A DNA stretch of 45,499 nucleotides from an uncultured Anaeroplasma sp. Lineage in GTDB: Bacteria; Bacillota_I; Bacilli_A; Acholeplasmatales; Anaeroplasmataceae. Position 1 is the stretch's first letter, and each line of letters begins with the position of its first letter. A program made the position numbers and the translations under genes. The stretch lies in assembly GCA_945920825.1 (NCBI GenBank), contig CAMEKD010000002.1, positions 1 through 45,499 on the forward strand. The letters are read 5' to 3'. This document shows, piece by piece, positions 646 through 45,499 of the stretch. Under the pieces are notes generated by a model. It saw nothing but the letters and a program-made list of their open reading frames with translations. It was not told where the DNA came from and ran no database searches.

Positions 646-1926
646 TTAAATCTTGCTTAATGCATTTTTTAAATCATCAAGTATATCATCGATATGCTCA
701 GTACCAATAGATAATCTTATAGTACTATCATAAATGCCTACACGAGCTAATTCCTCTTTTGTCATTTCTGAATGTGTTGTTGAGGATGGATGGATGACCA
801 AAGATTTTACATCTGCAACATTAGCTAAAAGCGAGAAAATCTTTAAATTATCAATGAAGGTCTTTGCTTCCTTTTCTCCGCCTACAACATCAAATGTAAA
901 TATAGATCCTCCACCATTTGGGAAATACTTTTTATATAATTCTTGTTGCTTTAAATCCTTAGTAATGGATGGATGATTTACATTCTTTACCTTTGGATGA
1001 TTTGCAAGGAATTTAACAACCTTAAGTGCATTTTCTACATGTCGCTCTACTCTTAGAGATAATGTTTCAAGACCCTGAAGAGCAATGAATGCGTTAATTG
1101 GAGAAATTGTAGCACCGGTATCACGAAGTAATATTGCACAAATATAGGTAACAAAGGCCTGTGGGCCTAAAGCTTCATAAAAGGATATTTCATGGTAAGA
1201 AACGTTTGGTTCAACTAAATGCTTAAATTTACCACTCTTTTTCCAATCGAATTTGCCACCTTCAATGATTACACCACCGAGTGCTGTACCATGACCTACA
1301 ATGAATTTTGTTGCAGAATGTACGACAATATCCGCACCATATTCAAGTGGTCTTACTAGATAAGGTGTTGCAAATGTTGAATCGACAACAAGTGGGATAT
1401 TATGCTTATGTGCTACCTTTGCAATCTCTTCAATATCTACAACATCAGAATTTGGATTTCCTAATGTTTCGATGAATACAGCCTTAGTATTTTCCTTTAT
1501 AGCCTTATCAATTTCTTCAGGGATTGGCTTAACAAAGGTTGTTGTAATACCATAATTCGGTAATGTATGCTGTAATAAATTAATTGATCCACCATAAATA
1601 TTGTTTGCTGCAACAATATGATCGCCAGCAAAGGCTAATCCTTGGATAGTATAAGTAATTGCTGCTGCGCCTGATGCAACCGCAAGTGCACCACTACCAT
1701 TTTCTAGTGCACGAATTCTTTCTTCAAATACCCCCTGTGTTGGGTTTGTTAATCTACCATAAATATTTCCTGCATCGCGAAGAGAAAAGCGATCAGCTGC
1801 ATGGTCACTATTATTAAATACGTATGATGATGTTAAATAGATAGGAACAGCTCTTGCTCCTGTTGCGGAATCTGGATTTTCCTGTCCTGCATGTAATTGT
1901 AATGTTTCAAATTTGTAGTTACTCAT
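646..1926 (-). CDS. metY: O-acetylhomoserine aminocarboxypropyltransferase / sulfhydrylase (Cys/Met metabolism PLP enzyme)
   Basis: [42 protein letters not shown]-lysine region, 426 aa; RBS AGGAG upstream; 13 bp from cysK, so probably co-transcribed. Confidence 0.93.
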
Positions 1927-2761: not shown

Positions 2762-4189
2762 TTATTTCAATATTGAAACAGCATCACTAATGGTTTTTTC
2801 TAAGGCTTCTTTTCCGTATTTATCTACCACAGCCTTATTCTTTTCCCCATGGGTTAGACATCCAGCCCCACCAATACATCCACCAACGCAAGCCATTCCC
2901 TCAATGAAGTTTGCATCCAGTACGTTTTTCCTCTTCTTTAGAAGTGCAATATGACATGCCTCAATGCCATCACAAGCACAGGCCTTTAAGTCAAAATCAA
3001 TATTTTGCTCCTTCAAGCCTTCCAAAACAGCATCGGATAATCCACCGGATCGTGCAAAGATTCTACCAAAGTAGGATGCATTGTCAAGTACATCCTCCTC
3101 AAGTGTAGTTATATTTATATCCTTACTATCAAATAGTGCCTGAAGCTCCTCAAACGTAATTACCTCATCGACATATGGCTTTACTGTATCGAGTCTAGCT
3201 TCAGCTTTCTTTGCTGTACAAGGGCCAATAAACACAACCTTTGCTTTTTCATCCGTTGTCTTTAAATATTTTGCAAGGGTTGCCATAGGAGATAAATTAT
3301 GAGAAACAAAAGGAAGTAAATCCGGAAATGAATTTTTAATATACCGCACAAAGGCAGGACAGCAAGAGCTTGTTAAAAATCCCTTCTCTGAAAGCTCTTT
3401 AGACTCCGCTTGTGCTACCATATCTGCACCTAGGGCAGCCTCAACCACTGTAAAGAAGCCTAATTCCTTAAGTCCCTTTATTACCTGGCCAAGCTTACCA
3501 TAGGTAAACTGACTGGATATAGATGGAGCTACAATAGCATAAACCTTATATTCTGTATTTTGCTTACTCTTTTTTATAAGATCGATAACATTTAAAATAT
3601 AGGATTTATCTGAAATTGCACCAAATGGGCATTGATATACACAAGCACCACATTGTATACATTTACTATTATCTATTGCAGCAGCATTATCCTCATTTAT
3701 AGAAATTGCTTTAACCTTACAAGCAATTTGACAAGGACGCTTACGATTTACAATAGCAAAATAAGGGCATACCTTTGCACATTGTCCACACTCTACACAC
3801 TTTGTTTTATCTATATGTGCTACATGGTTATGGTCAAAGGATATGGCACCCCTTTTACAAGCCTCCTCACAACGATGAGCCAAGCATCCACGGCAAGAAT
3901 CTGTAACCTCATAGCCTGCAGCTGGGCATTCATCACAGGCAATATCAATAACCTCAATTACATTAGGGTTATTCTTATCCCCACCCATTGCAATTTTAAC
4001 TCTTTCTCCAAGAATAGCTCTTTCCTTATATACGCAACAGCGCATAGTAGGAGTTTTTCCTGGTACAATCGTTTGTGGAATACTCATAACATTCTCTAAA
4101 AGAGTATCCTTCCACGCCTCTTTTGCAACCTCACGAAGTACCTTATATTTTAAATATTGAACCTTTGTATCAAATTTTCTAAACTCCAT
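2762..4189 (-). CDS. Monomeric [FeFe] hydrogenase, group B-like
   Basis: Ferredoxin Cys motifs (CVECGQCAKVCP, CIQCGACVYQCP) and H-cluster motifs TSSCCPAF, FIGPCTAKKAEA, EGMACVGGCIGGAG. Confidence 0.88.
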   Translation of the reverse strand: MEFRKFDTKVQYLKYKVLREVAKEAWKDTLLENVMSIPQTIVPGKTPTMRCCVYKERAILGERVKIAMGGDKNNPNVIEVIDIACDECPAAGYEVTDSCRGCLAHRCEEACKRGAISFDHNHVAHIDKTKCVECGQCAKVCPYFAIVNRKRPCQIACKVKAISINEDNAAAIDNSKCIQCGACVYQCPFGAISDKSYILNVIDLIKKSKQNTEYKVYAIVAPSISSQFTYGKLGQVIKGLKELGFFTVVEAALGADMVAQAESKELSEKGFLTSSCCPAFVRYIKNSFPDLLPFVSHNLSPMATLAKYLKTTDEKAKVVFIGPCTAKKAEARLDTVKPYVDEVITFEELQALFDSKDINITTLEEDVLDNASYFGRIFARSGGLSDAVLEGLKEQNIDFDLKACACDGIEACHIALLKKRKNVLDANFIEGMACVGGCIGGAGCLTHGEKNKAVVDKYGKEALEKTISDAVSILK

Positions 4190-4200
4190 AGTACATCTCC

Positions 4201-5379
4201 TTAGAAATAACTTACCTTTATCCTTTTACCCATCTTTTTAAGACATTCGGATAATTCCTCAACGAGATTCATTTTAATATTAAAAGTGATCGGTAAATCC
4301 GGATTTTGATGTGCTGGATTTACCGCTCTTCCAACATAAAAGTTTATATCTGTTGCTTCTTCAAATAAAAGCCTACAAATGAGTGATGCTCCATCACGCT
4401 GAAAGCCCCATTTTTCATAAAGCTTATTTTGACCTAAAGCATCCTTTGCATATTCAATTACCTTACTGATGGTAATAACACCCTCAGTTACTAAATCAAC
4501 CCCTTCAATTTCAGCAATTGGAGGAACATCTCCTCTTTCAAAGGAAAGACTTACCTTTATCTCTTTGCCAAGGTATCTTGCGGCAATCGATGAGGTTGTA
4601 CCACCACAAATAATATGCTTTCCTTCCTTAGAAAAGAATAAAGACATCATACGATTATTGTCATCACGATTACGTGGAGGTCCAAATAAAATATTCACTG
4701 GTTCTCTTTTTCTTACCTTGATGACACAGGCCGTTGCATCATCCCCTGGGTGGTGTCCATATTCCTTATCACACTGGTCGACTAGCATAGTAGCTAAAGT
4801 TTTTGCATTATATCCTGCTTGAGCTAAAGAAAGCATAAAATCAGCAATATCCTCAAGCTTCCATCCAAAATTATACGCAAGACCAATTCCAGCGTGAGGA
4901 CATCCATCACTCATTGCGATTAAGCAATCATCCTCTTGTAGATTAATAATGGATTTTAAAACCTTTTTCCCTTCAATATTAAGTTCCTTTGTAGGATAAT
5001 TATAAACATTAAAATTTCTTAAAAATATGACCTTAGGATTATCATATTGAATAATTTCAACGGTTCTATTTTCTATAATATGAATAATTGTAAATGTAGA
5101 ATATGCAACACCTCTTACAGAGCATATAGGTAATGTTGCTGCAATCGTTGAAACACAATCCTCAAGCTTTAATCCCTCTGCCATCATTGTAGAAATAATC
5201 TTTGATGTAAGTGTAGATAAAATACTCGCCTTAACTCCACTTCCTAGGCCATCGGCTAAAACAATAACCTGGGAATTATCCCCTTGGTTTACTATATCTA
5301 CATGATCTCCACAAAGCTCTTCTCCCTCATGATTTATACTTTTCCAGCCAATATCTGCACATAAATTATTCATCAACAA
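4201..5379 (-). CDS. SpoIIE-family (PP2C-type) serine phosphatase
   Basis: QVIVLADGLGSGVKASILSTLTSKI, DDCLIAMSDGCPHAG, HPGDDATACVIKVRKR; 14 bp overlap with the upstream sensory hydrogenase gene. Confidence 0.85.
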   Translation of the reverse strand: MLMNNLCADIGWKSINHEGEELCGDHVDIVNQGDNSQVIVLADGLGSGVKASILSTLTSKIISTMMAEGLKLEDCVSTIAATLPICSVRGVAYSTFTIIHIIENRTVEIIQYDNPKVIFLRNFNVYNYPTKELNIEGKKVLKSIINLQEDDCLIAMSDGCPHAGIGLAYNFGWKLEDIADFMLSLAQAGYNAKTLATMLVDQCDKEYGHHPGDDATACVIKVRKREPVNILFGPPRNRDDNNRMMSLFFSKEGKHIICGGTTSSIAARYLGKEIKVSLSFERGDVPPIAEIEGVDLVTEGVITISKVIEYAKDALGQNKLYEKWGFQRDGASLICRLLFEEATDINFYVGRAVNPAHQNPDLPITFNIKMNLVEELSECLKKMGKRIKVSYF

Positions 5380-7039
5380 TCGACTCCTTCAGCTTTGTAA
5401 GAGCAATTTTTGTCTCTGCTGCAGTCTCACCAAGAAGGGATGCTATTTCTTGAACAATTCGCATTTGTTTTTCTACAACATTATCTGCAATTTCTACGGT
5501 TTGACGACTAATTTCTTCTTTACGCTCACGCTGAGATTCTTCTTCCGTCACATCACGTAAAATTCCTAACAGTAAATGATATTCCTTATCGTAAACAATC
5601 GTCTTATCTACATATTTGCCATATTCCGCAAGATATTCTCTCTTATCATGAATTGGTCTTCCCATATTTAATACCTTAATAAAGTCATTTGGATCTAATA
5701 TACGTATGACCTGGTCTCCTAAAATATCCCCTGGATTACGTAAATTAAGCATTTTAAGTGCAGCTTGATTTACCTGCTGAACCTCTAGAGCTTCATTAAG
5801 TACAATTAATCCATTTGGTGTATTTCTAGAAATTGTGTCTGAAAAATTCTCAGCCTTTTCCTTTAGATATGGAAGGCACATTGAAATTTCTGCCTTGCCC
5901 TGTAAAATCGCAATAGCCTTAGCTCTACAAGTATCATATCCACAAGAACCACAATTCAGCTCATCCTCTTTTTTCATTTTACCCATCTGACGAAGTGTTT
6001 CTTGGATTTCAGCATCACTAGGAAGTGTTGTGCCACGATTAATAGTTAAGAAATTCTTCACAACCTCGTTTGGTGTAGGCTGTGCTACCTCAAAATCCTC
6101 TTTTCCTGCATAATCGGATACAGATAAATAATCCTTAACTGGAGACCTATGGAATTTTTCCATTACAGGTCCTCCAACACAGCTACCTACACATGCAGAC
6201 ATTTCGATGAAGCAGTTATGTACATTTCCTGCCTCAATATCCTTAAGTGCAGCCATACAGTTTTCAACACCATCCATAGCCATATAGCTATAGTTTGGAT
6301 TTGCCATAGCCATAGTCTTTAAAATTCCACCTGTCGTTGGGAAGAATCTTGCAAGACTCTTTTCATTTTTATCCTTTTTCTTTTCTAGAGAAATCCTTTC
6401 ATTATTTAACCATGCCGTAAGCTCATCAAAGGTTAAAACAGCATCGACAATGTTCTCATACTTCTGAGCCTCATCCTTCTTTGCAACGCAAGGTCCAATA
6501 AATACAGTTTTCGCATTTGGAATTCTCTTTTTAATATCTATACAATGCGCCTGCATTGGAGATAAAACATCAGCAAGATAAGGAAGTAAATTTGGATAAT
6601 ACTTCTGAATAAGTAAATTAATGGAATGGCAGCAAGAGCTAATAATAATATCTCTTTTCCCTTCATTAATCAGTCTATCATATTCCTTTTTAACAATCGT
6701 TGCACCAATTGCCGTTTCCTCTACATCATAGAATCCTAGCTTTTTTAATGCATCACGCATAGAATCTATACCTACACCCTCGTAATTTGCAACAAAGGAA
6801 GGTGCTAAGCTAACAACCACAGGGTCTCCACTTTGAAGTAAGACTCTAACCTTTTCCGTTTCATCGACAATTTGCTTTGCATCCTGTGGACAAACGACAA
6901 AGCACTGACCACATAAAATACATTCATCACTGATAATATATGCCTGATTTCCTGAAAAACGAATCGATTTTACAGGACAATGACGAATACACTTATAACA
7001 GTTTTTACAATTTGATTTTTTAAGAGTTAGACATTCCAT
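5366..7039 (-). CDS. Sensory [FeFe] hydrogenase-like protein (group C): 2x[4Fe-4S], H-cluster domain, Fe-S domain, PAS
   Basis: CKNCYKCIRHCP, CILCGQCFVVCP, SSCCHS, FIGPCVAKKDEA, SACVGSCVGG, CGSCGYDTCRAKA, then a PAS-like region (NGLIVLNEALEVQQVNQAALKMLN) and a coiled-coil tail. Confidence 0.87.
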   Translation of the reverse strand: MECLTLKKSNCKNCYKCIRHCPVKSIRFSGNQAYIISDECILCGQCFVVCPQDAKQIVDETEKVRVLLQSGDPVVVSLAPSFVANYEGVGIDSMRDALKKLGFYDVEETAIGATIVKKEYDRLINEGKRDIIISSCCHSINLLIQKYYPNLLPYLADVLSPMQAHCIDIKKRIPNAKTVFIGPCVAKKDEAQKYENIVDAVLTFDELTAWLNNERISLEKKKDKNEKSLARFFPTTGGILKTMAMANPNYSYMAMDGVENCMAALKDIEAGNVHNCFIEMSACVGSCVGGPVMEKFHRSPVKDYLSVSDYAGKEDFEVAQPTPNEVVKNFLTINRGTTLPSDAEIQETLRQMGKMKKEDELNCGSCGYDTCRAKAIAILQGKAEISMCLPYLKEKAENFSDTISRNTPNGLIVLNEALEVQQVNQAALKMLNLRNPGDILGDQVIRILDPNDFIKVLNMGRPIHDKREYLAEYGKYVDKTIVYDKEYHLLLGILRDVTEEESQRERKEEISRQTVEIADNVVEKQMRIVQEIASLLGETAAETKIALTKLKESIVDE

Positions 7040-33598: not shown

Positions 33599-36500
33599 AT
33601 GACAATGACAAAGAAAACATTGCGCAGAGCGGTTACTGCTTCCCTTGCTAGCGCATTCGCAATATCTTTAGCATCTTGTTCAGCTGCATCGGACAATCAT
33701 GGTAAAATCGATTTAGATGCCATCTATGCTTCTAGTGGAGATTATTCCGTATCCTACGGAGATATCTGGAACGAGCTTAAATGGAAATCGAATGAGGTTT
33801 TAGATACTCAAATTACCAATGTAGTTTTAAATAAGTATATCAGTCGTATTAGCATTGTTCTATCTAAGGATTCTAACTCTCTTACAGGAGAGGATAAAGA
33901 AGCTTTAGGCTTTGATAGCGAGAATAATGTTTATAGCGATGATGCTTATAACAAGATGAAAGAAAATTATGAAGAAAGAATTGTAGATTACGTAGTACAA
34001 GACATCTATAATTTCACTTATCAAACCGATAACTATTGGGACAATTTCGAATCCCTAAAGCGTGTCGATATTGATACCCTAGAGGCTAAATATGTAGATG
34101 AGATTTATTCTGAATATTTAGTTGACACTATTGATGGTGTGGAATTAATTAAGTTAATTCAAAAAGCAGATTACAAGAATTATAAGGATAATTTTGCAAA
34201 CTATTTAAAGCTTGCAAAGGGCTTATCTCAAATCTATTATCCTCTTTATGCAAAGGAATTATTAGCCTATAGTGGACTTGAGGAGGATATTAAAGAGGCG
34301 GATGAGGAAGATACAGATGCTGATGATGATCAGTGGGGTTATTATGCTGTATCAAAATATGTATCTAAATTCAAGGAAGAGTACACAAATAATTATGATA
34401 TGAGTGCTATCATTATCAACTTTGCAAACTCAAGTGAAATGGAAGATACATTAAGAGCCTTTGGATTAAAGTTCAATGGTAAGAACCTATATTATATTTA
34501 TGATTCAAAGGATACGAATAAATATACCTTAAATGCAGATGGCTATATGACTTATGAGGATTACATCAAATATTATGATGATTTCTCTACAAGTAATCTA
34601 AATAATGGTCGTGATGATGAAGGTAACCAGATGGCAACGGTTGTATCTAGCCAAGCCATACTAGAAATTTATATCCAAATATATAATTATGTATATGGCG
34701 GATATAGAAAAAAGCTATCCTCTACTTATACTGGTACAGCTTATACACAGCTAAACCAATTAAGAAGATTAACGGATGAAATCTTAGAGGCTTATGCATC
34801 TCCTGCTCCAGGAACTACCGTTGAGGAAATGCTAAAGAAGGCAAAGAATACGCTTAAGGCAGATAACGCTGAAGAGACTTACTATACTGCAAAAAATTTA
34901 AAGAAGCTTTATGGTGATACATTCAAAACCTATATGTATGATACATTAAAGCTAAAGCAAGGCTCTACTTGCTATTCTTATAGCGGTCAAACATCAAATC
35001 TAGGTACATCCTTAGCTTATAAATTTGATGAATATACACATCATGTAGATAAAGAGGAAATTACAGATTCTTCCTTAATTCATTTTAAGGAATGGTATAA
35101 CGAAGAGGAAAGAAACTCTACAGATATCACTGCATTATTGTTAGATACTGAAGCCTATCCATCCTTATCCTCAGATATATTAGAATTATTAAAGAAGGAT
35201 GATATTACTTCTTCTGCAATTACAAATTATTTAAGTGAAGAATTAGATGATGTTTCTGTAAAGATTTATAATGAAGCTTGTGAAATCAAGTATTCTGCAG
35301 ATAATGCAGATTATTCAAATGCATTATCTAAGGTGGGAAATGATAACATTTTAGCTACGATTTCTTATGATAATGTAACTTGGAATTTAAATATTGTTGG
35401 AGATAGTGAGGATAAGGATTCTGTTTTAATTCCTGGTACTTCTACTCCATTTGGTGTATTTGATTATTTAGAGGCCAAGAGTGGTACAACTACTGCGGTT
35501 GATTTAATATCTTCAAAGATTGTTAAGACTACAAAAGAATACGAGAATACAAATAAGGATAGAGATTTATATAAGAGATATATTGAGAATATGCTATTAA
35601 GCTTCTCTAATGATTATTATTCTCAAAGTGGATATCCTGCATCTATTGGTAAATATAATTTCTTAATGCTATATTTCCATACTGCCGATGTAGAAAAGAT
35701 CATTGATGATTATTATAGAGTAAATGCTGCATCCTCTAAGCTATTAACAGATTATTCTTCAGATAAGCTAGTAAACTTCTTTGAAAAATATGTTGATATC
35801 CAAGAGGCAAATTATTTCTCCTTAGGTGGTACTCGTCTTTATGTATATTTAGATAGAGATGATGACGGCAAGGAGGATGAGGTTTCTGATTGGTGCGATT
35901 TGCTTGTATCTGATTATGATGCAACAAGCGTATTTGCAGGTAAGACCTTCGGTGAGGTTGCAAAACAATTCGTTTGGGAAATCTACAATAAGATTAGTGC
36001 ATCAACATCCTCTCATACAGAGACTGCAACCCAGCTAGTAAGCGAGATTTCATCTTCTGCAAAGGCCGCTTATGATGAGAACCCTATTTCCGCTGAAAAC
36101 ACTTGGGCAGTTTATAGACATTTAGGTTTAAATGTAAAGACTGCAGAATTCACTGCTACAAACGCAACAACAGATATTGATTTTGATTTAAAGCAGCGTC
36201 TATATGATTATTCAAGAGGCTATAGCTTAGATACAAATGGAAATATCACAAAGACTTATGAATATTTCTTAAATAATACATATCCAACATGCTATATCGA
36301 GCCAATGGGTGATAAGGATACGGTAATTAAGGCTGACGATGACACTATCATTCAAACGAATGATGGATATAACCTAATCATGGTTACATCTGGTACTACT
36401 TCTGCATCCGCAAAATGGACTAAGACAGATAATAGCGAGGGTATTTTAGAGAATATCGTATTCATGTATAACGAGAACCCTATCACAATTACAGATATCT

Positions 36501-36898
36501 ATAATGATACTGAGGAATTAAATTTCAACCAGATTAAGTTCTATATTCTAGATTATGCAATCCATGGTTCATCCACTTTAGCTCCTCAATCATTATCCGA
36601 TGCATATTCAAGATATCTATCTCCAGTAGTAACTCGTTTTACTTCTTCTGAGACACAAAGAATTATTTTAATTAATTATATTGAAAATTCTACAAATGCA
36701 AGCATTAGCTTCACAAAGAGCGGCAACAATGATGCATTTGCTAAGATTGTAGCTATCGCACAAACTTCTGCTGATAATTATAGCTATTTATATAATGATA
36801 CAACAGGTACATCGAACCTATATGATTACAAGGATGAAAATGGTAATCTAGTTACTTGGTGGGATAGCATTAAAACTATTTTAAAGGAGGAGGCTTAA
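33599..36898 (+). CDS. Giant lipoprotein (1099 aa), PrsA/SurA-foldase-like organisation
   Basis: Signal and lipobox AFAISLASC; N-terminal DIWNELKWKSNEVLDTQITNVVLNKYIS (SurA-N-like); LYVYLDRDDDGKEDE; late GYNLIMV. Confidence 0.65.
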   Translation: MTMTKKTLRRAVTASLASAFAISLASCSAASDNHGKIDLDAIYASSGDYSVSYGDIWNELKWKSNEVLDTQITNVVLNKYISRISIVLSKDSNSLTGEDKEALGFDSENNVYSDDAYNKMKENYEERIVDYVVQDIYNFTYQTDNYWDNFESLKRVDIDTLEAKYVDEIYSEYLVDTIDGVELIKLIQKADYKNYKDNFANYLKLAKGLSQIYYPLYAKELLAYSGLEEDIKEADEEDTDADDDQWGYYAVSKYVSKFKEEYTNNYDMSAIIINFANSSEMEDTLRAFGLKFNGKNLYYIYDSKDTNKYTLNADGYMTYEDYIKYYDDFSTSNLNNGRDDEGNQMATVVSSQAILEIYIQIYNYVYGGYRKKLSSTYTGTAYTQLNQLRRLTDEILEAYASPAPGTTVEEMLKKAKNTLKADNAEETYYTAKNLKKLYGDTFKTYMYDTLKLKQGSTCYSYSGQTSNLGTSLAYKFDEYTHHVDKEEITDSSLIHFKEWYNEEERNSTDITALLLDTEAYPSLSSDILELLKKDDITSSAITNYLSEELDDVSVKIYNEACEIKYSADNADYSNALSKVGNDNILATISYDNVTWNLNIVGDSEDKDSVLIPGTSTPFGVFDYLEAKSGTTTAVDLISSKIVKTTKEYENTNKDRDLYKRYIENMLLSFSNDYYSQSGYPASIGKYNFLMLYFHTADVEKIIDDYYRVNAASSKLLTDYSSDKLVNFFEKYVDIQEANYFSLGGTRLYVYLDRDDDGKEDEVSDWCDLLVSDYDATSVFAGKTFGEVAKQFVWEIYNKISASTSSHTETATQLVSEISSSAKAAYDENPISAENTWAVYRHLGLNVKTAEFTATNATTDIDFDLKQRLYDYSRGYSLDTNGNITKTYEYFLNNTYPTCYIEPMGDKDTVIKADDDTIIQTNDGYNLIMVTSGTTSASAKWTKTDNSEGILENIVFMYNENPITITDIYNDTEELNFNQIKFYILDYAIHGSSTLAPQSLSDAYSRYLSPVVTRFTSSETQRIILINYIENSTNASISFTKSGNNDAFAKIVAIAQTSADNYSYLYNDTTGTSNLYDYKDENGNLVTWWDSIKTILKEEA

Positions 36899-36899
36899 G

Positions 36900-39800
36900 A
36901 TGAAAAAGGCATTCAAGAGCTTACTTCTTGCAAGTACTACAGGATTAATGGCATTAACTCTTGCTTCCTGTGGTGGAGAGACAAGAAATTCTAGCGTACC
37001 TTACGGTGAAGGCAACAAATACAATTCGGATACTGTAATTGCCACTGCATCGAATGACATTACAAATGAAACCATGAAGATGACTTTGGCACAGTTCTAT
37101 TCTAGATTAAGATATTCTGGAAACACTTTTGTTACAAATAATATTAAAAAGGCTGTTTACAGCAAGGAATATGATGCTGTAGTTGATGTTTTAACTCATG
37201 AGAACCTAGCTGATGTTAAGGATTCTACAAAGGCTTTAATTACATTAACTAAGAATGATACTCCCCTTTATAGCCTAAGTGCTACAACACTTGATGCAAC
37301 AGGTGCATTAAATAATTATCAATATATTCGTCGTTATATGGTAAACGCAATTCAATCCTTATTATCTAGTGGAATATTCTCTGCTACTTCTGCAAAGAAG
37401 GTTGCTGATATCGAGGATAAGGTTATCGAGAAATATTACACAAAATATATTGAGACTCAAGCAAGACGTGGAATTACCATTACTAAGGCTGAATTAGCTT
37501 TCCAACAGCCAACAGATAATAGTGATGTAATCCAATTTACAAATTTCAAATCTATCGTTCTAAACTATAGAGGATTAGTGGATTCCTTCATTATTACACA
37601 ATCGGAAAAGCTTGCAAGTAAGAATGCATTATATCAAATTGCAGATGAGGAATACATCTATGAATATGATGCAGACCCATCTACAGATGAAAAAACTAAG
37701 AATAGCTCAAACTATCTATTTGATGAAAAGAAGATGGAATCCTTATATAATACTACATATAAAACATATGGTGAATATAAGGCTGTAATCATTCAGTTCA
37801 ATTCAAGACGTGAGGCATTAAAAATTACCGATGATGCTACAAATGAATTAGGCTATAGCTTAGATGAGGCGGATACGGAAGAAAAGGTTAAGAATTATTA
37901 TTTAAAATTATATAATTTAACCTATGCGTATGACCCTGCAACAGCGTTAGATGATGACAGATTCACTTATACAGTTTCTAAGGATGAAAATAGCTTAAGT
38001 GAATTAAATGATACAGTTAAAACAGCTATTACAGATACTTTAAAGAATGGTGAATATTTTAAATCGCCAAGAAACCTATCCGATAAGTATTATATGATTT
38101 ATCATATAAGTACTAAGTATGATGTTTCTTCAAACGATAAGGAAACGGAATTTGCTGATTTAACTAAAGAGCAAAAGGAAAAGTATACTACTTATTTAAA
38201 GTGGGATACAATAGAATCGAATGCTTCTAATTATGCATCAACAAATTATAAGGCTTTAATCTATAAGAATTTAAATGATGAGAACAAGGATAATGATTTG
38301 AGAATTTATGATCCAGTAGCTGAATATAGATTCTATAATTCTTATTCTGATGTTTATACATTAATGGATAAGTCTTATTTCAAGGATAATTTAATCTTCT
38401 CTTATGATGGCATTGAATATAGCTGTGAGGATTTCTATAAGGATGCAAGCCTATATTATGCATCTGAGACAATTACAAATTATTTCCAATTAGAATATGC
38501 AAATTCCTTCATCGACAAATATATCGATGAGGATACAAAGACTAAAAATAGCGATACTATAAAGGATGCTATTTCAACATTCAATTCTAATGGTAATTCT
38601 CAATATCCTTCTTCTATGGGACTTGAAAATTATTTATTAATTGCATATGGCTATGAAAACGAAGAGGATGTATTAAAATATTACTTTAATGCAGCTAAGT
38701 GCTTAACAAGCTACAAGGCTGAAAAGGTATTTGAGGATTGGGCTGTATTAAACCAGGAAAAGACCGATGCTGAGGGTAAGAAGATTTATAACATTAATGA
38801 AGCTTATAAGACTCAAGGTATTCTATATAACCTATTAACAAGTGGTAATAAGGATTATTCTACACTATTCAATATTAACCTAGATCATTTCTTAATTAAT
38901 ATTGATGCGAATGGTGATGGTACTCCTGATGATCCAGATGTATTCTTAAAGGATTTATCTGATGAAACTAAGGAAGCGTTCGAAAATGCTGTAGTTGAAT
39001 TAGCTCAGGCATTATATGTTGAGGCTACAAGTGGCCTATATGGTGATAATTCCTACTATACAATCCTAAATTATCTAAAGCAGGCTTACGAAGAGGGTAA
39101 GGCATTAAAGACTGACCCTACGAAGACTTGGGATGATTTTAAGTCCTTCGAATTCCTATTAACTGTTGAAGAGCTAGCTTCTAATGGTGATATCACTCAG
39201 GATTCTGTTTCTAATTTCGTAGAACCATTCAAAAATTATGTTAAGAATGTTTACAAGACATTAGATGAGGCTGATACAAAAATTGCAGAGGATGGTAATT
39301 TCTATATCTATGATTCTGCTGAAGAGAAAGGTCATGTACTTGATAAGGATACCGATGCATCAAAGATTACAATCGATACCCTATGTAAGACGGTATATGG
39401 CTACCACCTATTAATCGTTAATAGCTATAGCGGACCAGATTCTACAGATTACAAGAAGCCAAGTGATTATGAATCACAATATGCAAACAATCTTCCTATT
39501 ACATTAATTGCAGATGATAAATCTACAGATGAGGATGAATCTATCGTTGTATATACAGATTCTTGGAATGAGAATACCTCTGAAATTTCATTCAACCAAT
39601 TCTTCATCTATTATGTTCAAAAGGCAAATAGTGCTACATCTTCTCTAGAATCAAATATTGCATCCTTATGCTCTACACTATTTGATAACTCTATTTCTAA
39701 ATATGTAAGCTCTAATTTCCAAACCTTCTTATTATTATCTAAGCTAAATATCCAAATCGACGCTACAAATGGTCCAAAGGTATTCACTTATGATACAACA

Positions 39801-39914
39801 GCTGGATTAGATGTTGAATATTACAAGAATGCAGTTATCGATTGGGGAGATGAGAATCAATATCTTCCTTGGGTAGATGGTACTTATAATTGGGATAGAC
39901 CAAAATCGAAATAA
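36900..39914 (+). CDS. Giant lipoprotein (1004 aa), paralogue of preceding gene; degenerate parvulin-like foldase?
   Basis: LMALTLASCGGE lipobox; LDHFLINIDANGDGTPDD and VYGYHLLIVNSY resemble parvulin domain boundaries. YPSSMGLENYLLIAYGYENEEDVLKYY aligns with YPASIGKYNFLMLYFHTADVEKIIDDYY in the neighbour. Confidence 0.65.
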   Translation: MKKAFKSLLLASTTGLMALTLASCGGETRNSSVPYGEGNKYNSDTVIATASNDITNETMKMTLAQFYSRLRYSGNTFVTNNIKKAVYSKEYDAVVDVLTHENLADVKDSTKALITLTKNDTPLYSLSATTLDATGALNNYQYIRRYMVNAIQSLLSSGIFSATSAKKVADIEDKVIEKYYTKYIETQARRGITITKAELAFQQPTDNSDVIQFTNFKSIVLNYRGLVDSFIITQSEKLASKNALYQIADEEYIYEYDADPSTDEKTKNSSNYLFDEKKMESLYNTTYKTYGEYKAVIIQFNSRREALKITDDATNELGYSLDEADTEEKVKNYYLKLYNLTYAYDPATALDDDRFTYTVSKDENSLSELNDTVKTAITDTLKNGEYFKSPRNLSDKYYMIYHISTKYDVSSNDKETEFADLTKEQKEKYTTYLKWDTIESNASNYASTNYKALIYKNLNDENKDNDLRIYDPVAEYRFYNSYSDVYTLMDKSYFKDNLIFSYDGIEYSCEDFYKDASLYYASETITNYFQLEYANSFIDKYIDEDTKTKNSDTIKDAISTFNSNGNSQYPSSMGLENYLLIAYGYENEEDVLKYYFNAAKCLTSYKAEKVFEDWAVLNQEKTDAEGKKIYNINEAYKTQGILYNLLTSGNKDYSTLFNINLDHFLINIDANGDGTPDDPDVFLKDLSDETKEAFENAVVELAQALYVEATSGLYGDNSYYTILNYLKQAYEEGKALKTDPTKTWDDFKSFEFLLTVEELASNGDITQDSVSNFVEPFKNYVKNVYKTLDEADTKIAEDGNFYIYDSAEEKGHVLDKDTDASKITIDTLCKTVYGYHLLIVNSYSGPDSTDYKKPSDYESQYANNLPITLIADDKSTDEDESIVVYTDSWNENTSEISFNQFFIYYVQKANSATSSLESNIASLCSTLFDNSISKYVSSNFQTFLLLSKLNIQIDATNGPKVFTYDTTAGLDVEYYKNAVIDWGDENQYLPWVDGTYNWDRPKSK

Positions 39915-42218: not shown

Positions 42219-43028
42219 TTATGCTAATTCTAATTGGAAACTTGAACGCTTGTCCGTACCTGTAATGAATTCAGTAACGTGACGAGAGTCACTTCTGATA
42301 GTCGCAAAATCTGTGAAGAAAATTCCCCAAGATTTTGGATCATTTGTTTTAGAATCGTAATCATATTCATATGAACTCTTAAAGCCATCTTCACCAGCAA
42401 TATAACCAAAAGCGAATTCGTTTGTTGATGCACTGCTGCCACCAAATTTTCCGCTTGTAATCACATTTTTATTCTTACCAACAGATAAATCAATCATGTA
42501 TAATACTGCAACCAAAGAATCATTCGATGCATCATCATCAGCTAAAATCTTTTCATTATATTGATTAATCGTGTATTGAATTTCAATTAAAGCCTGAAGT
42601 GCTAAATCATGCTGCTCATTATAATAAAAGGTTACAGATTCATCATCCTTATTCTTGCCCTCATCAATTGCCTTATCTGGATAGAATGTTGTGAAATCAA
42701 ATGCAGCAAAGAAAATATGCTTATAATATGTACCATCACCATAATCATCGGAATTCGCATGCATTAGCACACCCTCATAACTCATCTTTTTGAAGGTAAC
42801 TTCTTTTTCATTATATGTATAAGTCTTTCCAACATAATCAATCTTTTCCTCAGTTGTATCTTGATTTGCAAGTACAAGTGGAATGGTAATTGCAGCTGCT
42901 AAAACGAGTACAAGTCCTACTCCTGAGATTATCCAAAATAATTTATTATGTAAGATATTCTTCTTTTTTTGACCCTGTGTGGCTTTACCGGATACTTTTT
43001 TTCTTTTAATTGTTGCCAAGTCAATCAT
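42219..43028 (-). CDS. Single-TM (bitopic) extracytoplasmic protein of unknown function, 269 aa
   Basis: Basic cytoplasmic N-terminus KKKNILHNK, TM LFWIISGVGLVLVLAAAITIPLVLA, acidic Tyr-rich outer domain. Confidence 0.65.
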   Translation of the reverse strand: MIDLATIKRKKVSGKATQGQKKKNILHNKLFWIISGVGLVLVLAAAITIPLVLANQDTTEEKIDYVGKTYTYNEKEVTFKKMSYEGVLMHANSDDYGDGTYYKHIFFAAFDFTTFYPDKAIDEGKNKDDESVTFYYNEQHDLALQALIEIQYTINQYNEKILADDDASNDSLVAVLYMIDLSVGKNKNVITSGKFGGSSASTNEFAFGYIAGEDGFKSSYEYDYDSKTNDPKSWGIFFTDFATIRSDSRHVTEFITGTDKRSSFQLELA

Positions 43029-43098: not shown

Positions 43099-43122
43099 TA
43101 AGAGAAATCATAAGATTTCTCC
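43099..43122 (-). terminator. Terminator overlapping the stop codon of the S-component fusion gene
   Basis: GAGAAATCttatGATTTCTCTTATTTTT on the minus strand. Confidence 0.65.
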
Positions 43123-44250
43123 ATTATCTTCTATATATACTTCATTATCTTTATTCCATAACTCGCCAAGCTTACGACTTAATGGTTTATATAAATAAAT
43201 CATTGTGAATGCGATTGTAGAAATTAACATAATTTCAAATGGAATATCTGCAATCCAATAAAGATATACATTTATCTTTAGGAATACTATGTTTGTCACT
43301 AAGAATAGCATAGAGTAAATGTATGCACCTAAAATAGCGCCAAGGGTTAAAAGAAATATATTCTTATTCTTAAGTAGCCATATAATTCCAATATAGATCA
43401 TATAGCCTAACCACATAGGTATCATAACAATAGGTGTTAGGCTTCCCATATAAATATTATCTAATAATACATGAGCAAATACGATAAGACTCGTCTTTTT
43501 AAAGCCAAATTGCGATACATATACCGCAAGAAGTAAGAATGTAAATTGGAAATTTGGTATAAATACTAAGAGTTCCTCTTGAACAAAGAGTAATACACTC
43601 ATGAAGGCTAATATGCATAATTCTCTTACGGTTATTTTATGATTGCTTTTTCTACTTACAATTAAGAATACAACTACCGCAATTAAAAATAAACCTGCAA
43701 GAACATAAACGATAATACGGAAGGCCTTTATAGAATTGTAATAGCTATTAAAGGATATGGAATCATTGAACATAGAGGTATTATGTAAATTATCTCTTTC
43801 GTTAATGGCAAATATCATATTATCCTTTAATTCTATTCCATCGATTCCAGTCGATACGGTTTGTTTTACATAATCATTAAAATCAATCGTATCCTTATAG
43901 CTTACACCATCCTTTATATAGCATAGTTCAAACCAAAGCCAAGTAGATGTACCATTCGTTTTTATATTGAAGGAATCTCCTTGAATACCAATTAAATAAT
44001 GGCCATAGCCAGTTTCTTTATATTCAATTGTATATAAGCTGTTTAATACCTCAAATAAGGTGTCATCCTTTTTATATTCAATACGCTTCTTTTCTACTAT
44101 CTGATTATCCATATTATTGACAATAAATGTTATTGTCCCTGCACGATTTGCAGATTTTTGATTATTATGAAGAATCACATAAACCATACTGAGTATCATT
44201 AATGAAATAAGGAGGACACCAAGAAGTATTCTCCCTATTTTTTTAAGCAA
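43108..44250 (-). CDS. DUF4430-like extracellular domain fused to ECF-transporter S-component-like membrane domain
   Basis: N-terminal TM, beta domain (DTLFEVLNSLYTIEYKETGYGHYLIGIQG...TWLWFELCYIKDG...STGIDGIELKDNMIF), then a polytopic region ITVRELCILAFMSVLLFVQEELLVFIPNFQFTFLLLAVY. Confidence 0.7.
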   Translation of the reverse strand: MLKKIGRILLGVLLISLMILSMVYVILHNNQKSANRAGTITFIVNNMDNQIVEKKRIEYKKDDTLFEVLNSLYTIEYKETGYGHYLIGIQGDSFNIKTNGTSTWLWFELCYIKDGVSYKDTIDFNDYVKQTVSTGIDGIELKDNMIFAINERDNLHNTSMFNDSISFNSYYNSIKAFRIIVYVLAGLFLIAVVVFLIVSRKSNHKITVRELCILAFMSVLLFVQEELLVFIPNFQFTFLLLAVYVSQFGFKKTSLIVFAHVLLDNIYMGSLTPIVMIPMWLGYMIYIGIIWLLKNKNIFLLTLGAILGAYIYSMLFLVTNIVFLKINVYLYWIADIPFEIMLISTIAFTMIYLYKPLSRKLGELWNKDNEVYIEDNGEIL

Positions 44251-45499
44251 AAATATTCACAGCCTTCTTTTTGTCTCTTTGAATCTTATATGCCATTAAT
44301 GAAGCATAAATTTGATTTGATGAATAATCACCAGTACCTAATTTTTCTGTTTTGAATACCATTTCTTCTTTGTCATAGCAGTTATCAAATAAGTATTTAA
44401 TAAGATCTGTATTGGATTCATCTAAAGCAAACTCTCTTGGGTTTTTGTTGGTAGCAACCAAAGGGAATAAAATATTTGCGATAGATGTAGACAAATCCGC
44501 ACCAAAATCATTGACAGCCTGATGGATGGCATCTAGTGTAAATACATTCATTTCACTATCCTCTAAAGTATTATATAAAGCCATTCCAGTAATCTGCCAA
44601 GCTAAAGCATCTGTGCCATATTGTAAGGAGGCTCTAAAGGTTGGATTCTTAACCTCATCTTTAATTTTATTATCTAATCCTAATTCCTTTGCGATAGATA
44701 ATGCAAATGGCATCACATATTCAGAACCATATGTAGTTAAATTATCTAAATATGTGCCATATACTTCTTTGAATTTCGTTAAATCCGTATCAAATAATCT
44801 TGCGGCATAATACCATTTCGCATAATTGGCCTCACTTGCCCATGAGGTTGCGTTAGGTAAATCATCTAAATTCGCATTGGTGATAGATTCCTTATAAGCA
44901 TCACTATAAGAATTTAGGTTAAATAGATTCGAATCATAATTATTCTTCATCATATAATACAAGCTTATAGACTGCCAATATATACTATCAAAACAGCTTG
45001 TAGATTGGGCAATAGATGTCTTCATTTTTGTTTTAGCATAATGATATATTGCCTGATCAAGTAATACCTCATAAGAATCCATAGTGCCAAAGCCAGATTC
45101 TATTGTATTCCAGCATTCATTTTTGAATGTGAATTTATCTCCATTATCTACAACTATACCATCTACACCTGTTGACGCAAGAGAGTCATTTTCATAAATC
45201 ATTAAGCTAAAGTTTTTATCTATAACTGTTTGATTGATAGAAGTTAGATAGTGGCTACCATCACTATCCTTTGCCTTAACATCAAATTTGGCATTTAAGC
45301 CATCCCAAAGGCTTGGGTATTCTTGGATAGATAATGTCTCATTACCTACCAATTCACCATCAAGATCATAAACCTCAATGGTATAGCTACCCAAATTGGT
45401 CTTTGTTTCTGTAGTGGTTTTGTCTAAATCCGTTGTAGTTTTAACCTCACCACTCGTGGTTTTATTATCACCACCACAGCTTGAAAGCACTATGGCTAG
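44243..45499 (-). CDS. DUF4430-like lipoprotein with alpha-helical toroid-like C-terminus; 5' end beyond window
   Basis: The frame stays open to the window edge (LAIVLSSCGGD lipobox), so 45490 is not the true start. DUF4430-like TIEVYDLDGELVGNETLSI...STGVDGIVVDNGDKFTF, then helical repeats. Confidence 0.68.
   Translation of the reverse strand, partial: LAIVLSSCGGDNKTTSGEVKTTTDLDKTTTETKTNLGSYTIEVYDLDGELVGNETLSIQEYPSLWDGLNAKFDVKAKDSDGSHYLTSINQTVIDKNFSLMIYENDSLASTGVDGIVVDNGDKFTFKNECWNTIESGFGTMDSYEVLLDQAIYHYAKTKMKTSIAQSTSCFDSIYWQSISLYYMMKNNYDSNLFNLNSYSDAYKESITNANLDDLPNATSWASEANYAKWYYAARLFDTDLTKFKEVYGTYLDNLTTYGSEYVMPFALSIAKELGLDNKIKDEVKNPTFRASLQYGTDALAWQITGMALYNTLEDSEMNVFTLDAIHQAVNDFGADLSTSIANILFPLVATNKNPREFALDESNTDLIKYLFDNCYDKEEMVFKTEKLGTGDYSSNQIYASLMAYKIQRDKKKAVNIFA

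Follow-up and report, generated by a model that had tools for sequence, protein, structure and literature searches.

The window analysed here, 45,499 nucleotides in length, is an entire contig (C2) of a draft genome of 1.64 Mb with a completeness of about 92%. Its host appears to be a cell-wall-less bacterium close to Anaeroplasma, from the rumen or gut. The right edge of the window, at 45499, is the end of the contig and not the end of a gene. Two genes on the minus strand together fill 43108-45499, and they overlap by 8 bases in the ORF list. Gene 1 (44243..45499, 418 aa, truncated on its 5' side by the contig boundary) encodes a lipoprotein in which a DUF4430, transcobalamin-beta-like domain precedes a helical one. 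In the product of gene 2 (43108..44250, 380 aa, TTG start), a first transmembrane helix leads into a DUF4430-like domain, and a second one leads on to an S-component-like domain. A first-pass annotation had placed two overlapping minus-strand reading frames here and quoted a segment of each; both frames were found at these positions and both segments (LASTGVDGIVVDNGDKFTF and VSTGIDGIELKDNMIF) in the translations. Anaeroplasma bactoclasticum ATCC 27112 is the closest named relative, with 66% identity in gene 2.

Within the window, gene 1 starts close to a lipobox (LSSC, 45476..45487, minus strand, read from the translation) with a lipid-anchored cysteine, which corresponds to alignment column C8 and is kept in at least 90% of relatives. 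The first-pass annotation had described this protein as lipid-anchored. A lipobox, LAIVLSSC, is indeed present at the contig end, while the start of the signal peptide, MKKRLFASTMVFGLA, falls outside the window, on contig C65 of the same genome. The lipobox is followed by the beta domain (45110..45391, minus strand, residues about 37-130), which was delimited with Pfam, DSSP and hhalign. Pfam DUF4430 matched residues 64-128 (E 6e-6, 27.0 bits against a cut-off of 23.8), and in the AlphaFold model, which is confident (pLDDT 88.4, pTM 0.86), DSSP assigned beta strands across residues 38-129. When the model was searched against the PDB with Foldseek, the best match was 5np4, the beta domain of human transcobalamin with cyanocobalamin (E 3.7e-4, TM 0.69 on the target); next came its apo form 5no0, a Ruminococcus gnavus protein (3u7z) and whole transcobalamins. 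A comparison of the gene 1 beta profile with the human transcobalamin beta domain in hhalign aligned 78 columns (P 0.0033 for this single comparison). The alignment includes a YLTS segment, which reads GPYLTS in human transcobalamin and SHYLTS in gene 1; Ser359, Tyr362 and Leu363 of the human protein are presumably ligand contacts. At the end of the beta domain, C129 (EC[WF]N motif, window about 45113-45115) is kept in at least 90% of 15 gene 1 relatives. Speculatively, this cysteine could have a structural role or could be a cobalt ligand as in BtuM.

The remainder of gene 1 (44258..45082, minus strand, residues about 140-414) is all-helical by DSSP on the same confident model, and a toroid is possible there, if unproven. 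Foldseek aligned this half to intrinsic factor (3kq4) over 308 columns, a weak match (E 0.26, TM 0.33), and it also matched complement proteins weakly. One distant relative matched a prenyltransferase toroid at E 0.014. When the helical half was compared with the human transcobalamin toroid in hhalign, the score was no better than that of a shuffled sequence, and PF01122, the animal cobalamin-binding family, was absent from the genome, the helical half of gene 1 included. We hold with moderate confidence that this half is an alpha/alpha toroid.

Gene 2 was divided into four parts, all on the minus strand. An N-terminal transmembrane helix (44167..44247, residues 2-28; DSSP and hydrophobic sequence) is followed by a tethered DUF4430-like beta domain (43792..44139, residues 38-153; DSSP and Foldseek), a linking transmembrane helix (43651..43743, residues 170-200; DSSP) and an S-component-like domain of six helices (43153..43629, residues 208-366; DSSP, Foldseek and a PDB profile match). 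The AlphaFold model is good domain by domain (pLDDT 86.4, pTM 0.62), and Foldseek E-values for this protein were modest overall (0.002-0.26). The beta domain matched transcobalamin (7qbe/5no0, TM 0.71 on the target). Its Pfam DUF4430 match (E 0.019, 15.8 bits) was under the cut-off, which the counterpart of gene 2 in Floccifex porci clears with 33.8 bits. A beta-type segment common to both proteins, as had been proposed, was above chance by Pfam DUF4430 and Foldseek, and for the DUF4430 or transcobalamin-beta fold in the two proteins Pfam, Foldseek and hhalign agree.

The membrane domain of gene 2 was matched by Foldseek to RibU, ThiT and other S-components (4huq_S, TM 0.77 on the target; E 0.017-0.26). 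NCBIfam searches and single-protein sequence searches of the PDB gave nothing useful for gene 1 or gene 2, and against the PDB alignment profiles of relatives outperformed single-sequence queries. A 171-position profile built from 16 membrane-domain relatives was run against all PDB sequences, and the only S-component that it matched was 6FNP chain A, CbrT (E 0.0028, positions 3-158); in this search the folate S-component FolT was not matched. The homology to CbrT is distant, and from it we infer that gene 2 may share the same substrate specificity. The resemblance of the polytopic domain to ECF S-components, claimed in the first-pass annotation, was thus borne out by fold for RibU and ThiT and by sequence profile for CbrT. 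The Pfam comparison was divided: ECF_trnsprt had no match in gene 2 itself, while one of the 16 relatives matched PF12822 (E 9e-8). S-components are a group defined by fold rather than by one Pfam profile.

An Rfam scan of the window itself found no element; the riboswitch sits on another contig. A genome-wide riboswitch search and cmscan located a cobalamin riboswitch (RF00174, 91.4 bits) at C65:9146-9318. The order on C65 is metF, a gene for a 207-aa protein, metH (which encodes both B12-binding domains), the riboswitch and, running up to the contig end, the beginning of a lipoprotein gene. The 8 bases that close C65 recur as the opening 8 bases of the window, read on the minus strand, with a continuous frame across them, so that the joined reading gives a normal lipobox and a complete lipoprotein signal (MKKRLFASTMVFGLAIVLSSC). 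By chance, one of the other contig ends would show a comparable overlap with a probability of about 0.5%, and the junction pattern was, as expected, absent elsewhere in the genome. In A. bactoclasticum ATCC 27112 (G001/L024/L072) the same genes, the riboswitch and the downstream genes are unbroken on one contig. On the basis of the 8-base in-frame overlap and of this gene order, we placed C65 beside the window, which is very likely correct, though not proven. A B12 riboswitch beyond the right edge, for which the first-pass annotation had suggested looking, is present across the inferred junction.

The 207-aa protein (L061:6192-6815) lies between metF and metH in this genome and in relatives with a metF-metH operon, and it has no Pfam or NCBIfam match. 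MetH of this genome is short, 781 aa against a model of 1182 positions, and the 207-aa protein may be a reactivation domain split off from it. We did not retain the name MetH activation domain for this gene, as it was guessed from position and is unsupported by Pfam or NCBIfam.

Several other genes of the window were also recorded. Downstream of the pair is a membrane protein gene (42219-43028, minus strand) with a weak match to mycoplasma P80 (NF045833), and such a gene occupies the same place in A. bactoclasticum. Beside the locus, on the opposite strand, are two adjacent genes for very large lipoprotein-like proteins (33599-36898 and 36900-39914, plus strand; 1099 and 1004 aa), neither of which has a Pfam match at 1e-3. 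Near the other end, 646-1926 (minus strand) encodes an O-acetylhomoserine sulfhydrylase of the homocysteine synthase type (TIGR01326), the product of which is the substrate of MetH; a similar gene (1502-2788) lies no more than about 2 kb from the S gene at locus L030. The window also contains two [FeFe]-hydrogenase-like genes (2762-7039, minus strand), the second of which carries an Fe-S cluster domain as well as a PAS domain.

We then considered the distribution of the locus. A scan of contigs recovered 67 loci in Acholeplasmatales, Izemoplasma, Erysipelotrichaceae (including the isolate Floccifex porci) and Lachnospiraceae. The recurring cassette consists of a riboswitch, an optional lipoprotein of the gene 1 type, a DUF4430 domain with a transmembrane anchor (DUF4430-TM) and an S-component, and metF and metH are often adjacent to it. 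Many relatives have the riboswitch, DUF4430-TM and S gene only, with no gene 1 beside the pair, suggesting that the core system can do without gene 1. DUF4430-TM is fused to the S gene in 7 of 63 tree rows, and on the tree the fusion requires two changes (two gains, or one gain and one loss). At one locus (L109:1650-7528) the cassette is duplicated in tandem, each copy preceded by a separate cobalamin riboswitch (1650-1817 and 5064-5233), and in Floccifex porci a fluoride riboswitch (L116:12264-12334) is found downstream of the B12 cassette. Of 346 genomes sampled from the class, 87 have the S family, and its cultured carriers include A. bactoclasticum and Floccifex porci.

A cobalamin riboswitch was detected in 41 of 47 further genomes searched, and in 38 of the 47 it was on the same strand as the S gene, 0.4-2.0 kb upstream; 11 of these 38 loci were confirmed directly by cmscan and the others were paired by coordinates, since the two collections number their contigs differently. 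Among 55 genomes of the family, all ten that bear the riboswitch carry the S gene, while about half of the S-bearing genomes had no detected cobalamin riboswitch under the stricter filters used here and with broken contigs. The S gene and MetH occur together in 18 of the 55 genomes; four have the S gene only, two MetH only and 31 neither (Fisher p 8e-9, uncorrected for kinship). The four S-bearing genomes in which MetH was not detected (G002, G011, G022 and G034) suggest that the imported corrinoid may serve other uses as well.

The first-pass annotation had suggested looking for EcfAT genes beyond the right edge; EcfA, EcfA' and EcfT are all present in the genome, located elsewhere, on contig C81. 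At one locus (L084) EcfA and EcfT genes are followed by an adjacent B12 cassette. A FecCD permease of the BtuC type was not found in this genome (about 92% complete), and the gene 1/gene 2 pair may therefore be the only B12 route of the host. We weighed transport of cobalt ions but did not adopt it, since CbrT is matched by the membrane profile and none of the matches was an S family for cobalt transport.

We consider it highly probable that the locus encodes a riboswitch-controlled system for the capture and import of a corrinoid (vitamin B12). That the ligand is a corrinoid, initially a guess, is a strong inference, well supported by the riboswitch, the MetH operon, the match to CbrT and the transcobalamin-like folds. 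In the proposed mechanism the gene 1 lipoprotein would capture cobalamin or another corrinoid outside the cell, with the ligand most likely bound where the transcobalamin-like beta domain faces the helical half. The tethered beta domain of gene 2, above the substrate mouth, would receive, guide or cap the ligand from gene 1, and the S-component would carry it across the membrane with energy supplied by the genome's shared EcfA-EcfA'-EcfT module. Once imported, the corrinoid would be used by MetH, the B12-dependent methionine synthase whose gene lies just upstream. Cobalamin riboswitches lower expression, and the one between metH and gene 1 would do so for the pair when B12 is plentiful. These Mollicute-like cells probably have neither an outer membrane nor a wall.

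The individual steps of this scheme differ in strength. That the ligand is passed between the two beta domains can be proposed with moderate to weak confidence. A more specific version, which we put forward tentatively and think somewhat more apt to be wrong than right, is that the tethered beta domain serves as a built-in lid: it would form a transcobalamin-like cage with the mouth of the S-component, the S-component standing in the place of the toroid, and B12 would move from the lipoprotein to the importer by a swap of beta partners. If true, the S-component would bring a receiving domain of its own, which no paper that we found describes.

The same parts could work alike if the substrate were not whole cobalamin but a precursor or fragment of a corrinoid, either cobinamide or the lower-ligand alpha-ribazole. 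CbrT accepts cobinamide besides cobalamin (PMC5997447), and corrinoid riboswitches are reported to answer to several cobamides (PMC9600662); MetH, however, requires a complete cobamide, and we judge import of a precursor to be unlikely. There is also a small chance that gene 1 and the tethered beta domain are B12 sensors or adhesins, with transport carried out by the S domain alone. Bacterial transcobalamin-like domains are described in many surface architectures in the accessible portion of one analysis (PMC1796856), and the S-component fold is also used by receptors (PMC11109136). Yet no kinase or output domain is present, and in most relatives DUF4430-TM lies directly before the S gene, to which it is fused in the tree rows mentioned above; this arrangement fits a working part of an importer. 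Finally, the metF-metH neighbourhood could be the real clue, pointing by its context of methionine synthesis to another methionine- or folate-related ligand, but this is very improbable given the cobalamin riboswitch between metH and gene 1 (here and in G001), its retention directly before the DUF4430-TM-S pair in many relatives with no metH nearby, and a membrane profile that matches CbrT and not FolT.

Returning to corrinoid capture and import, the closest known importer is the ECF-type B12 importer of Lactobacillus delbrueckii, with CbrT as its S-component. Its structure, 6FNP, is that of ECF-CbrT, for which transport of cobalamin and cobinamide was shown (PMC5997447). The membrane profile of gene 2 aligns with CbrT nearly over the full length, and a shared ECF module and a cobalamin context are common to both. 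The CbrT chain, in contrast, has 182 aa and no soluble domain, whereas gene 2 adds a transmembrane-anchored transcobalamin-like beta domain in front, and unlike CbrT the S-component is here accompanied by a putative capture lipoprotein. A survey of gut genomes found known B12 importers in no more than about half of the auxotrophs for B12 and described the others as an open problem (PMC6593275), and the present S family is a candidate for part of this gap.

A surface lipoprotein that captures B12 and passes it to a transporter is known from Bacteroides, in BtuG, according to the parts of the two reports drawn on here (PMC6143338, PMC10404256). As described there, capture followed by hand-over is a working likeness to the role proposed for gene 1, although the proteins are of different kinds and the Bacteroides recipient is BtuB, a TonB-dependent protein of the outer membrane.

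The animal B12 carriers transcobalamin, intrinsic factor and haptocorrin resemble gene 1 in beta fold, in part of the sequence (YLTS) and in the layout of a beta and a helical domain. They differ from it in that gene 1 has the reversed domain order, a lipid anchor and a helical half unmatched by sequence, and in that the animal proteins are soluble and work with endocytic receptors. In the accessible sections of Burroughs et al. 2007 (PMC1796856), transcobalamin was put in the SLBB superfamily, and bacterial surface SLBB proteins with a toroid on either side were described, so that the swapped order was already on record. Second SLBB proteins were noted in the same operons, together with CbiO/CbiQ, and scavenging of B12 was predicted. 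Like the present pair, those are surface proteins of low-GC Gram-positive bacteria. The same sections contain no S-component, fusion to one, cobalamin riboswitch or MetH operon. A full-text literature search, the scope of which left out most subscription journals and all bioRxiv preprints, returned no paper on such a system. Features that appear to be new are the link to the riboswitch and MetH, a partner resembling CbrT, and a beta domain fused directly to an S-component. The 2007 prediction of bacterial transcobalamin-like B12 scavengers gains evidence from sequence, fold, operon and riboswitch, together with a named importer. Those sections also trace animal transcobalamin to low-GC Gram-positive bacteria (PMC1796856), and the finding bears on the source from which the animal protein came.
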